Shown here one piece after another: positions 26,182 to 31,408 of a DNA stretch of 64,000 nt (position 1 is the first letter of the stretch; each line of letters opens with the position of its first letter). The stretch covers positions 1-64,000 of the forward strand of contig JAGPCK010000003.1 in NCBI GenBank assembly GCA_018058135.1, given 5' to 3'. Source of the DNA: Bacteroidia bacterium. Lineage in GTDB: Bacteria; Bacteroidota; Bacteroidia; UKL13-3. The notes under the pieces are model-generated. The model saw nothing but the letters and a program-made list of their open reading frames with translations, was not told the origin of the DNA and made no database searches. The position numbers and the translations under genes were made by a program.

Positions 26182-27558
26182 TTATTTAATAATTATCCGC
26201 TCTACGTGCAGCAGGTTATTGTCTTTGTCAAAAAGTTGTAACAGGTATATTCCTGCTTTTTGTTTTAGTGCAAGCTCAAAAGCTGATAGGTTTGATGGGA
26301 GTATCTCGGATTGTAATACACGTCCGGTGATGTCGCATATTTCTGCTTTGGCTAAACTAATTTCTGTGTTGTATTGAACGCGAATATGATCTGATGCAGG
26401 GTTGGGGTAAAGCTGTACAAAAGGATTTCGACTCACACGCGTTGTGCCTGCGGGGATTTGTAAACTTACTTTATGCAATGCACGGATGACAGTGCCAAAT
26501 AGCAGGTTGTTAGACAGGCTATCCTGATTGGTAAGAACGGAAAATGTAATGCCCGATGTAATGTCTACAGCATTCTCATTGATGTATCCGAAAAAAGTTC
26601 CTCCGTGTGAGTAAGCTCCGCGTCCGTTTAGTTCATTGTTATACTTAAATATGCCCAATCCGTAACCGTCACCTCCGCCAATATTTATTGTTTGAGTCAT
26701 CTCACCCCAAGAAGTAGAGTTTAATAGTTTTCCAGATGTGAGCAGATGCCAGAACAGGACATTGTCTTCTGCTGTGGTTACTAATGAACCGGCTGTATTG
26801 GCCAGGCTAAACAAGTTGTCGAGGTATGGCGTTTGAGTCATGTCTTCCATTTCTGCCCCTGTTAATATATTACTCCAGGGGTGAGCCAAAGGTGTAGCGC
26901 CTGCATCTCCAAAGTTTTTAGTGTGATTAAGCCCGTGCGGAGCAAGCAATCTGGTGTTAAGTGCAGTCCAGGGTGATTCGTTAAGCACTTTGCTGATGAT
27001 AATACCGGTTACAATATAGTTGGTGTTAGAATAGTCCCAGGCTGATCCGGGAGGGAAATTGGGTGTTTTTGCCAATCGCATAATTTCCTCTCTGGTCCAT
27101 ATTTTAGCCGGCTTGCCAAAAATGGAGTCATTGATGGCATCACTCTGCATGTAGTCATGCAAGCCACTGGTGTGGTTGAGGCATTGTCGTATGGTGATTT
27201 GTCCGTTGATGTTTGGGTACCCTTGAATCCATTTTCCGATGGTGTCATTCAGGTTAAGCAAACCGTTCTCCTGCATGTTGAGTAACAAAGCAGCTATATG
27301 TGTTTTTGTATTGCTCCCCATACCAAAGTACATGTCTGGTGTAATAGGAACGTTCTGCTGTGAGTAGCCATATCCTCGTTTCCAGGTTCCAGCATTTGGG
27401 AAATGTACAGCCGCTGAAGCACCTTTTATTTTGTAACGGAGACAAACGCTGTCGAGTACTTCAGATAAGCGATTGGTGAGTGTTTGTGGTAGTTGGGCAC
27501 TTGACTGCAAGCACATCATTACGCCACATGTAATGGAGAGTAGAGTTATTTTTTTCAT
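26182..27558 (-). CDS. Secreted serine hydrolase (class C beta-lactamase fold) with T9SS tail
   Basis: The 458-aa protein has a signal peptide ending QSSAQ. The beta-lactamase/D,D-peptidase domain contains GSNTK (Ser82, Lys85, the SxxK motif) and WDYSNTNY (Tyr176, Asn178, the YxN motif). Later GAYSHGGTFFG replaces the KTG-type motif with HGG, as in many esterase-like members. The C-terminal about 80 residues, VQLYPNPASDHIRVQYNTE to GIYLLQLFDK...IIIK, are a classical T9SS type A sorting domain. It is probably a surface or extracellular peptidase/esterase rather than an antibiotic-resistance enzyme. It is divergent from the LytS gene. Confidence 0.88.
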   Translation of the reverse strand: MKKITLLSITCGVMMCLQSSAQLPQTLTNRLSEVLDSVCLRYKIKGASAAVHFPNAGTWKRGYGYSQQNVPITPDMYFGMGSNTKTHIAALLLNMQENGLLNLNDTIGKWIQGYPNINGQITIRQCLNHTSGLHDYMQSDAINDSIFGKPAKIWTREEIMRLAKTPNFPPGSAWDYSNTNYIVTGIIISKVLNESPWTALNTRLLAPHGLNHTKNFGDAGATPLAHPWSNILTGAEMEDMTQTPYLDNLFSLANTAGSLVTTAEDNVLFWHLLTSGKLLNSTSWGEMTQTINIGGGDGYGLGIFKYNNELNGRGAYSHGGTFFGYINENAVDITSGITFSVLTNQDSLSNNLLFGTVIRALHKVSLQIPAGTTRVSRNPFVQLYPNPASDHIRVQYNTEISLAKAEICDITGRVLQSEILPSNLSAFELALKQKAGIYLLQLFDKDNNLLHVERIIIK

Positions 27559-27660
27559 GGTAGGGTTATTTTATGTGGCAAAGAAAAGTTACACCTCAGA
27601 TGAAGACAAACCTGTTTAGACGTAGCTCCTTTATAATTAGACAGGCAAAGCTTTGAGCTG

Positions 27661-27690
27661 TTTGGTCTAAAAAAAAGAAACTTTGGTCTA
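27661..27690. promoter_or_regulatory. Candidate LytTR operator: 9-bp direct repeat, 12-bp spacer
   Basis: TTTGGTCTA occurs exactly at 27661-27669 and again at 27682-27690. The 12-nt gap gives a 21-bp (two-turn) period. LytTR response regulators typically bind pairs of about 9-bp direct repeats with 12-13-bp spacing. It lies 30 nt upstream of the LytS start, in the divergent interval with the serine hydrolase gene. The repeat is seen directly; the binding role is inferred. Confidence 0.55.
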
Positions 27691-27720
27691 TTGTGCTATA
27701 GATATTTGAGGTAATATTGA

Positions 27721-28824
27721 ATGTTTTGCAGCATGAATCAATTCATTTTGTTTTTACGTAAACTAATTAATCTCGCAGGCTCGCGCATTGCACTCAATAT
27801 TTATTTCTGGGTAGCAATACTGCTCTTGAAAATTTCGGATGCAGATGATCAGCAAGCTTATCCGAATATTTTCTACTACTTACTGATGGTTTTCTTTCTT
27901 GGTTTTTTTGCTGCTGTCAGTTACATCAACAATCTGTATTTGCTGCCGGTATTTCTTTTCAGGAAGAAGTACCTTAAGTATTTTATTTTTTTACTGCTAC
28001 TTGTCTCAGGCATTTCATACCTGTATACCTACTTACTTATTTACCTGCCCCGCATTTTTCCCGCTTTGGATACAATGGTACTTTCTATTGTAATGGATCC
28101 TGTAGATAACGATTTGAGCCCTGCCGGGGTAGCAGGAAACATGATGACCTATTTCTTCTTTATGCTGGTATGGACATTCTTCTTCACATTGCTGGGAATA
28201 TATTACCGCAATAAAAAGCAACTGGTCGATATGCAGGCTGTTCTCAATCAACACAGAGAAGTTGAGCTGACTATGTTAAAGAACCAGATTCATCCTCATT
28301 TTTTATTTAATACCTTAAACAATCTGTATGCATTAGCGCTGAAAAAATCGGATGATACGCCTGAACTAATTTTGAAGCTATCGGCTGTGTTACGTTACAT
28401 GATTTATGAGGCTGCAACACCATTGGTTTCTTTCAGTAGAGAGAAAGAGGTTATTCAGGCGTATACGGATATTGAACTATTGCGTGTACAGAATACTCAG
28501 CAAGTACATTTTTCGATAGTGAGTGACGGGGAATATACCATCCCTCCTTTATTGTGGCTGCCGGCTTTGGAGAATGTGTTTAAACATACACGCAACGCGG
28601 AAAGTCCGGACATTGAGTTCAGGTTGGAAATAAAAGACAATAAGTTTTATCTGTGGTGTCGCAACAAACTGTATCCAAATGCCATTACTAAAGACGAGTC
28701 AGGTGGTTTCGGGATAGTGAATTTACGGAAACGTTTGGACTTACTCTTTCCTGAAAAACATCAACTGTTTGCAGAGCCAAGCGGAGATTATTTTATATTT
28801 GAATTAGAAGTTTCTCTTTTATGA
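27721..28824 (+). CDS. LytS-family sensor histidine kinase
   Basis: The 367-aa protein has four hydrophobic segments (about 23-160), a linker coiled coil, and the His_kinase domain LKNQIHPHFLFNTLNNLYAL, with phosphoacceptor His193. It ends in a degenerate ATPase domain containing GGFGIVNLRKRL. The 5TM/4TM sensor type has no periplasmic domain, implying sensing of the membrane. ATG occurs at 27721 and again at 27733; either could be used. It overlaps the response-regulator gene by 4 nt (ATGA), so the pair is translationally coupled. The signal is unknown. Confidence 0.92.
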   Translation: MFCSMNQFILFLRKLINLAGSRIALNIYFWVAILLLKISDADDQQAYPNIFYYLLMVFFLGFFAAVSYINNLYLLPVFLFRKKYLKYFIFLLLLVSGISYLYTYLLIYLPRIFPALDTMVLSIVMDPVDNDLSPAGVAGNMMTYFFFMLVWTFFFTLLGIYYRNKKQLVDMQAVLNQHREVELTMLKNQIHPHFLFNTLNNLYALALKKSDDTPELILKLSAVLRYMIYEAATPLVSFSREKEVIQAYTDIELLRVQNTQQVHFSIVSDGEYTIPPLLWLPALENVFKHTRNAESPDIEFRLEIKDNKFYLWCRNKLYPNAITKDESGGFGIVNLRKRLDLLFPEKHQLFAEPSGDYFIFELEVSLL

Positions 28825-29546
28825 AAAAACATAAAGTACTTATAGTGGATGATGAGCCGCTTGCCAGAGAAATTATTCAAACTTTTTTAGGGGAATACTC
28901 TGAGTTAACTATTGCGGGTTCGTGTAGAAATGCAATGGAGGCTTTTGCACTGCTCAATCAGGTTGAGGTAGATGTGATTTTTCTTGATATCAATATGCCG
29001 GAAGTAAGCGGGATAGATTTTGTGAAAATGCTCAAGAAGGCTCCATTGATTGTGTTTACCACCGCGTATGCAGAATTTGCTTTAGAGAGTTACAGTCTAA
29101 ATGCGGTAGACTATTTACTTAAACCCATAGCGAAAGACCGTTTCAGGCAAGCTATGGGGAAGGTTATTGCACAGCTGCAACTGAATAATAGTCCTGATGA
29201 ATTGGCTAAAGAAAGCAACGACAACAGTTTGTTGTTTGTGCGTTCAGAAGGGAAATGGATGAAAATAGATTTGGCAAAACTACAGTGGGCCGAGTCGCTT
29301 AAGGATTATGTGAGGCTGTGGACTGCTGAAGGACGTATTACTATCCACAGCACCATGAAAAATCTGGAGGACCAACTTTCTGCTCATCCGAAATTTGTTC
29401 GTATTCACAAATCGTTTCTGGTTAATCTGGAGTTTGTACAGCAGGTTGATGTGAACGAGGTATGTGTTGCAGAAAGCCGTGTGGCTATAGGAAGCAGTTA
29501 TAAGTCTGCTTTGCAGGAAAGGTTAAATCAGTTCAGGTTATTGTAG
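28821..29546 (+). CDS. LytTR-family response regulator
   Basis: The 241-aa protein has a receiver domain (1-125) with DDE at 10-12, phosphoacceptor Asp56 in FLDINMP, and Lys in LLKPIAKD. The LytTR DNA-binding domain (about 140-240) has KIDLAKLQWAESLKDYVRLW and MKNLEDQL...FVRIHKSFLVN. The ATG overlaps the kinase stop. It should bind direct repeats such as the 9-12-9 element upstream of its own operon, giving autoregulation. Confidence 0.93.
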   Translation: MKKHKVLIVDDEPLAREIIQTFLGEYSELTIAGSCRNAMEAFALLNQVEVDVIFLDINMPEVSGIDFVKMLKKAPLIVFTTAYAEFALESYSLNAVDYLLKPIAKDRFRQAMGKVIAQLQLNNSPDELAKESNDNSLLFVRSEGKWMKIDLAKLQWAESLKDYVRLWTAEGRITIHSTMKNLEDQLSAHPKFVRIHKSFLVNLEFVQQVDVNEVCVAESRVAIGSSYKSALQERLNQFRLL

Positions 29547-29596: not shown

Positions 29597-31408
29597 CTAG
29601 TCTATATTTTCAGGTAGCGTATAAGTACGGTCTTTGTTTTTCTCTTTCAAATAAGGCATTAAGGGCGCAAAGTATTCCAGCATGGATGCAGCACTTAATT
29701 CACTTCCGGTTTTTTCTTTTAAAACATCGCGCCAGTTTTTGCCGGCACCATATTTCATAATATCGCGAAGGAAATCACCTGTTTCTTTACTGCCAAAATA
29801 ATTGGTATTGCGCGGGTCTTGCTTCAATATGTTTTTGGCAATATGGTTGTGAATCTGGTAAAGCAGTATGTAGGAGATGGCGTAATCATAGTATTGTGCA
29901 GCATCGTCATTGATATGTGTTTTGCTTGCAGCATCACAATACTCTTCGCTTCGATTAGTGGGAGGGACAACGCCCTGGTATTTTTTTACCAGTTCCCACC
30001 AGCGCGTATTGTATTGGTCGGCTGGTAGGTTTTTAACATATAAATCGTGCTCAAAGTGTGTCATGGTTCCGGCTGAGAACGGAATAAATACTACGGAGTT
30101 GAGCGCTTGTTTCAATAAGGTTTGCATCTCATCCGTTTGTGTATTGGCAGGCAACAAACCATTGTTGGCTAGGAAAGCATTTTGCATGGCGGCCAGTCCT
30201 ATCATGGTGCCGAATGCTTCGTGGTAGGCACGGTTAGCACCCTCACGCAATACAGGTGGAACTTCGGGAGTGCTATAGGTCATGTAATAGTAAATGTGTC
30301 CCAGTTCGTGGTTTACTGTTTCGTACCATTCTGTGTTGGGGATAACACTCATCAATGAGCGTACATCTTTGTTCAAATCCATGTGCCAGGCACTGGCGTG
30401 GTTATTCTTTTTGTATTTAGCATCAGCGGGAACCGGGTAAAGGCTCGATTTGTCATAGAAAGATTTGGGTAGCTCATCAAAACCCAGGCTTACATAAAAG
30501 CGCTCACCCTCTTTTACTACCCACTCGGCAGTTTTTGTTTTGAGTACAGAGTCGAGGTTCATACCTTCCACATTAACCATAGCACTCCAGTCTTGCGACC
30601 AGCGGTTGGTGAGCCAGTGTGCCGGTATATAATCAGGCACGTTTGACTTGTACTTAGCCGCCAGTTCGTAACGTGCATAGGTATGCAATTCACGGTACAA
30701 TGGCCAAAGCTCTTTAATAAATTTTTTATTAAGCGCCATCATTTCTTCAGAAGTCATTCCGTAGTCAGATACCTGATAGGTAAAGTAATCAGGATAGCCT
30801 AAACCTTTTACTGTTTCATTGCGCAGACGCTGTAAATGCTGGAGGCCGTTCTTAAGAGTTTTGCCTACCTCTTTGCTCGATTCCCATGCAGCCTGACGTT
30901 TTGCTAAGTCATTTTCTTCATTGAGAGTGGCATCAATATCATTGGTGGAAACAGATTTGCCGTTCATCTTAAAATCATATCCGAAGAGTTTTTCTGTTTG
31001 TGCAGTTTCTGCCTTGATGCGTTCTTTTACAATATCGCTGAGTGTCTCAGGGTTGTTGGCTGCGAGATAGAGTACTTTCTCCAGTTGTTTGATCTGTAAT
31101 GACGTGAGTTCTTTTTTATTTTCAAGAAATTTACGTGCTGTTTCAATGTTTGTTTTGCTACCGGTAAAGGCAGCATAAGCTTCATTTGTTGCTTCCGCTG
31201 CTTTGGCATTAGTGCTGTCACCTTCAATAATCATAGTGTTTACTTTCCATTGAGCTTCATTGGCCGCTGTAGAAAGTTCCACATATTTCTTGTTGTAATC
31301 GTCAAGAAATTTCTGAGCTTCCTGTTGCAGGTTTTTGCCTGTTTGGCCACAAGCGAAAAAGGCCATACTGATTATGGTTAACCAAAATAGTGATTTGATT
31401 TGTTTCAT
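29597..31408 (-). CDS. M2-family peptidyl-dipeptidase (ACE-like) lipoprotein
   Basis: The protein is 603 aa, with lipoprotein signal MKQIKSLFWLTIISMAFFAC (Cys20). The gluzincin motif VNHELGHIYYY has zinc ligands His367 and His371 with Glu368, and REGANRAYHEAFGTM supplies Glu397 as third ligand. This REGAN...HEA arrangement is that of angiotensin-converting-enzyme-type peptidases. It removes C-terminal dipeptides from oligopeptides, presumably in the periplasm or outer membrane. It is monocistronic between two clear terminators. The physiological substrate is unknown. Confidence 0.92.
   Translation of the reverse strand: MKQIKSLFWLTIISMAFFACGQTGKNLQQEAQKFLDDYNKKYVELSTAANEAQWKVNTMIIEGDSTNAKAAEATNEAYAAFTGSKTNIETARKFLENKKELTSLQIKQLEKVLYLAANNPETLSDIVKERIKAETAQTEKLFGYDFKMNGKSVSTNDIDATLNEENDLAKRQAAWESSKEVGKTLKNGLQHLQRLRNETVKGLGYPDYFTYQVSDYGMTSEEMMALNKKFIKELWPLYRELHTYARYELAAKYKSNVPDYIPAHWLTNRWSQDWSAMVNVEGMNLDSVLKTKTAEWVVKEGERFYVSLGFDELPKSFYDKSSLYPVPADAKYKKNNHASAWHMDLNKDVRSLMSVIPNTEWYETVNHELGHIYYYMTYSTPEVPPVLREGANRAYHEAFGTMIGLAAMQNAFLANNGLLPANTQTDEMQTLLKQALNSVVFIPFSAGTMTHFEHDLYVKNLPADQYNTRWWELVKKYQGVVPPTNRSEEYCDAASKTHINDDAAQYYDYAISYILLYQIHNHIAKNILKQDPRNTNYFGSKETGDFLRDIMKYGAGKNWRDVLKEKTGSELSAASMLEYFAPLMPYLKEKNKDRTYTLPENID

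Follow-up and report, generated by a model that had tools for sequence, protein, structure and literature searches.

The promoters P2 and P3 of the agr locus of Staphylococcus aureus combine autoregulation with an output, and the same combination is proposed here for a two-component operon of a Bacteroidia bacterium. In both cases the regulator is a LytTR response regulator (AgrA in S. aureus), and direct repeats lie upstream of each of two promoters, in the former within the agr intergenic region (PMC4227749). The present locus differs from agr in its recognition sequence, in having a single divergent gene for a secreted protein as its output, in its Bacteroidota -7 box and in a whole-turn spacing that recurs across lineages. 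Most LytTR sites consist of repeats of 9-11 nt with spacers of 11-13 nt and share no consensus (PMC4847170); this type of layout is found here, as 9-12-9, at the locus described below and at 16 others.

LytTR Regulatory Systems (LRS), such as HdrRM, BrsRM and the LRS-like operons of Bacteroides, resemble the present locus in having 9-12-9 repeats just upstream of a promoter and in being autoregulated (PMC6193735), and in Streptococcus mutans LytTR repeats just upstream of promoters lead to positive autoregulation (PMC6193735). By definition these systems have no kinase and pair the LytTR protein with a membrane inhibitor, whereas the operon studied here encodes a kinase and a receiver-LytTR protein; the repeats of the Bacteroides LRS-like operons are, moreover, of an 11-11-11, TCCGG type and lie further from the box (PMC6193735). 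The BtsS/BtsR and YpdA/YpdB pairs of Escherichia coli have, as here, a His_kinase (PF06580) protein with a receiver-LytTR regulator and a tandem repeat upstream of the target gene. BtsR is the best NCBIfam match, at 154 bits, below its cut-off of 246. The E. coli systems differ in that their targets are transporters and, in the portions of the sources available, no mirror-image operator is described for them; YpdB binds GGCATTTCAT repeats (PMC4847170).

In a literature search, with most subscription journals outside its coverage, no kinase-LytTR pair of Bacteroidota had an operator defined, and the recognition sequence, whole-turn mirror-image pair and swapped secreted partner described below did not turn up either. 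The 9-12-9 layout is already known. The novelty lies in the recognition sequence and the mirror-image arrangement, which make this a well-supported further version of a familiar type of control site; the mechanism is not of a new kind.

The operon and its divergent neighbour

The stretch of DNA analysed, 64 kb in length and referred to here as the window, contains a sensor histidine kinase gene (27733-28824, plus strand) followed by a response regulator gene (28821-29546, plus strand). A domain search bore out the preliminary description of a kinase with a LytTR-domain partner: the kinase carries His_kinase PF06580, and the regulator consists of a receiver domain (PF00072, 80.7 bits against a cut-off of 30.2) and a LytTR DNA-binding domain (PF04397, 53.9 bits against a cut-off of 22.6), as the definition of the class requires; by alignment, D56 is the aspartate of the receiver. 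The name LytS given to the kinase holds for the His_kinase domain but not for the sensor, as no LytS-type membrane sensor domain was found by Pfam, which returned PF06580 only, or by NCBIfam, which returned no match. Searching plasmids with the kinase recovered distant kinases only. The solved structures inspected among the matches covered the receiver domain, and none was a LytTR-DNA complex. At least two further LytTR regulators are encoded in the same genome. Divergent from the operon lies a gene (26182-27558, minus strand) for a beta-lactamase-fold serine hydrolase (PF00144) with a Por secretion (T9SS) tail (Por_Secre_tail, PF18962). Downstream, facing the operon, is a lipoprotein-like gene of the Peptidase_M2 (angiotensin-converting-enzyme-like) type (29597-31408, minus strand).

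The kinase is more likely to start at the ATG at 27733 than at 27721, a revision suggested by orthologue alignment and by the position of the predicted promoter. The direct repeat had been placed 30 bp before the kinase gene, which is correct when counted to 27721; the distance to the favoured start is 42 bp. The start at 27721 could be annotated, and it overlaps the predicted -7 box. If the predicted boxes are used, the kinase mRNA would begin at or next to the start codon at 27733. Leaderless mRNAs exist as a minority (5.5%) in a flavobacterium that has been studied (PMC9723704).

Direct repeats and promoter boxes in the intergenic region

Two exact copies of TTTGGTCTA, putative operator units on the plus strand at 27661-27669 and, proximal to the kinase promoter, at 27682-27690, are separated by a 12-nt spacer and hence repeat with a period of 21, as the preliminary description had it. 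They adjoin the kinase-LytTR operon on its upstream side and are the only exact copies of this 9-mer in the window. A scan of the genome found the pair once, the next best place having three mismatches. On sequence statistics alone the pair is mildly unusual and constitutes weak evidence. When the 162-bp intergenic region was dinucleotide-shuffled 5000 times, 2 of the shuffled sequences had an exact 9-mer repeat with this period, and the window contains four such repeats including this one; given the other three, the repeat by itself is no more than suggestive, and it is conservation in other genomes that makes it significant.

The earlier suggestion that this repeat could also act on the divergent hydrolase gene is supported by sequence in a modified form, through a second, inverted pair that had been overlooked. 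The putative units of this pair lie on the minus strand, GCCTGTCTA at 27638-27646 with the core GTCTA and, proximal to the hydrolase promoter, CTACGTCTA at 27617-27625. Their match in the window is confined to the GTCTA core (11/16 over the units), where it is complete (10/10), a value reached by 2 of 5000 shuffles. When periods from 10 to 33 were scanned over ten loci, 21 alone stood out, with a mean of 15.5/16 on the kinase side against 11.1-12.4 at other periods, and of 13.3 on the hydrolase or divergent side against 10.3-12.1.

The distance between the inner GTC[T/G]A cores of the two pairs also follows a rule. In 17 loci it is 10, 11 (seven loci), 12, 21 (two), 22 (three), 23, 32 or 33 bp, so that all gaps fall at 10-12, 21-23 or 32-33 bp, corresponding to between one and three full helical turns, and no gap has an intermediate length (R = 0.94 for a 10.5-bp turn, treating related loci as independent). 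The opposite pair of one locus, L068, and its inter-core value were placed by hand, and in L146-L148 the opposite pair is weak. Such whole-turn spacing suggests either contact between the proposed dimers or a need for both to have the same orientation on the helix.

The Bacteroidota -7 box has the consensus TAnnTTTG and lies at -12 to -5 (PMC9723704). A predicted -7 box for the hydrolase promoter, TTTCTTTG (27579-27586, minus strand), is found 30 bp beyond the operator, with a TTTG at an inferred -33 position (27607-27610, minus strand) 20 bp before it that is not conserved in orthologues. On the other side a weak -7-like box, ATGTTTTG (27721-27728, plus strand), likewise 30 bp beyond the operator, matches in TTTG alone. 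Both boxes are imperfect in the window, and better or perfect ones occupy the same place in orthologues. On the divergent side each of the first ten loci has a TAnnTTTG-like box, often imperfect, whose start lies 29 or 30 bp past the proximal unit, and four further loci (L154-L157) have a perfect TAnnTTTG at +29; no good box was seen at this position in L147 and L148. The kinase side shows a weaker and less regular effect, with poor boxes in many loci, that peaks likewise at 29-30 bp. For neither side did any of 2000 shuffles reproduce the boxes at +29/30. Use of these boxes would centre the units near -46 and -67, the position of an activator, and hydrolase transcription would begin at 27574 on the minus strand.

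Distribution of the site among Bacteroidota

A search of 64 genomes of the same family with a regulator cut-off of E <= 1e-55 identified six further regulators, 42-54% identical to the one in the window. In five of their loci the order of hydrolase gene and divergent kinase-regulator operon is retained, while in the sixth, L048, the contig ends within the kinase gene. A one-mismatch match to the operator pattern led to an eighth member, L083, which the protein search had overlooked because its contig breaks. The system is present in 8 of the 64 genomes, and was absent from both of two genomes of the same genus. All seven readable intergenic regions, including that of the window, contain a TTTnGTC[T/G]A pair with a period of 21 bp directed toward the kinase. 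Each also has a further pair, on the opposite strand and directed toward the hydrolase, in which GTC[T/G]A is the best-kept part. The repeat is therefore conserved on both sides in the orthologous promoters of the family, which supports the original reading of its spacing as the mark of a LytTR operator. In L046 the serine hydrolase gene is present in another copy (1061-2419), which adjoins the same two-component operon and has no clear operator.

Beyond the family, the direct repeat again lies upstream of orthologous or related kinase-LytTR operons, which brings the total to 17 loci in four Bacteroidota families. The same layout is seen with another PF00144 hydrolase as the divergent gene in L065, with a DUF4369/AhpC-TSA redoxin in L068 and with a 97-residue protein with a signal-like start in L112. 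Relatives of the L068 and L112 kinases supplied seven more loci (L154-L157 and L146-L148), the divergent gene being redoxin-type in all four of the former and encoding a signal-bearing protein of about 95 residues in L147 and L148. The site accompanies the kinase-regulator pair while the divergent gene varies between hydrolase, redoxin and small secreted protein. Sites are weak in L149 and L151, whose kinases are close relatives, none is present in the related-kinase loci L150 and L152, and the repeat is missing in most of the more distant regulators. The proposal that it defines the operator of this family in Bacteroidota thus applies to one LytTR subfamily, several relatives being without the motif.

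Other lines of analysis were set aside. Among 395 genomes of the class, 21 contain the exact consensus, at 33 places in total; with a spacer of 13 nt the pattern has 9 places, in 5 genomes. This count is not relied upon, since a period of 21 is divisible by three and a reversed control pattern also rises at N12. A whole-genome regulon could not be derived, as the exact or near-exact site occurs once in the genome of the window and a degenerate scan remained at background level, so further targets could not be named. The LytTR recognition motif FhRhH[R/K]S does not account for specificity, since HKS is found in the family of the window, in L065 and also in some non-carriers, while HRS is found in other carriers.

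A predicted two-way operator and its alternatives

It is very probable, judging from these arrangements, that the LytTR regulator binds both pairs and activates its own operon together with the divergent secreted serine hydrolase gene. The intergenic region (27559-27732) would then be a two-way LytTR operator: the kinase would phosphorylate the adjacent regulator (28821-29546) and so enable it to bind, and a phosphorylated dimer would occupy each direct-repeat pair (unit TTTnGTC[T/G]A), whose 21-bp separation would place the units on one helix face. With one pair facing the kinase operon and the other the divergent gene, each dimer would sit just upstream of RNA polymerase, its units near -46 and -67, giving positive autoregulation on the kinase side and induction of the secreted hydrolase on the other. 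The basis for this is the observed sequence, conservation, spacing, phase and promoter-box position, from which we infer binding, phosphorylation, cooperation and activation as the direction of control. It is possible, though somewhat doubtful, that the two operators are a single unit in which mirror-image dimers, their helical phase kept in different lineages, cooperate in binding and switch on the two promoters jointly. They would form a dedicated Bacteroidota 'sense and secrete' module whose control region is constant and whose divergent secreted product is exchanged (hydrolase, redoxin or small protein).

Repression of one or both promoters by the same regulator is unlikely. Both promoters do lie within one short region, and binding could block looping or the access of another activator, but a simple repressor site would be expected to overlap its promoter, whereas these units end about 42 bp before the predicted transcription start, clear of the -7 and -33 boxes, and known LytTR sites at such a position activate (PMC6193735). 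That the conserved repeats are bound by another protein, such as a LytTR paralogue or a different activator, is quite improbable. The additional LytTR regulators of the genome would provide candidates, and similar exact repeats occur elsewhere in the class beside genes with no LytTR neighbour, but these unlinked sites lack the +29 box; in the 64 genomes of the family, by contrast, the exact consensus pair occurs at four places, each of them preceding the orthologous kinase gene, and the site stays with the kinase-regulator pair though the divergent gene changes. A chance repeat in AT-rich intergenic DNA, which the four period-21 repeats of the window might suggest, is hardly credible: across 17 loci the unit, its period, the two orientations, the phase and the distance to the box are all conserved, which already refutes it.

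The results yield an explicit consensus (TTTnGTC[T/G]A-N12-TTTnGTC[T/G]A) and rules of position from which the target genes of such systems would be predictable; the site by itself sufficed to find a diverged orthologue, L083. Whether divergent LytTR operators cooperate can be tested directly through the helical-phase rule, and the kinase would be tied to a secreted product, the function of which might point to the signal.

Repeats with a period of about 21 bp also occur as arrays. One genome, G327, has three intergenic tandem arrays (L107, L126 and L130), made up of 5-9 units about 21 bp long that all begin TTTAGTCGA, the 12-nt spacer differing from array to array; one array is next to gldN, one separates response-regulator from kinase genes, and one lies upstream of a gene of Kelch/Por-tail type. 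Intergenic TTTnGTC[T/G]A arrays of three or four units with a period of 21 are present at L108, L113, L115, L119, L121 and L124, where no LytTR gene was recognised nearby in the stretch read, and several of them adjoin genes for SprB, GEVED or CHU_C-type surface proteins.
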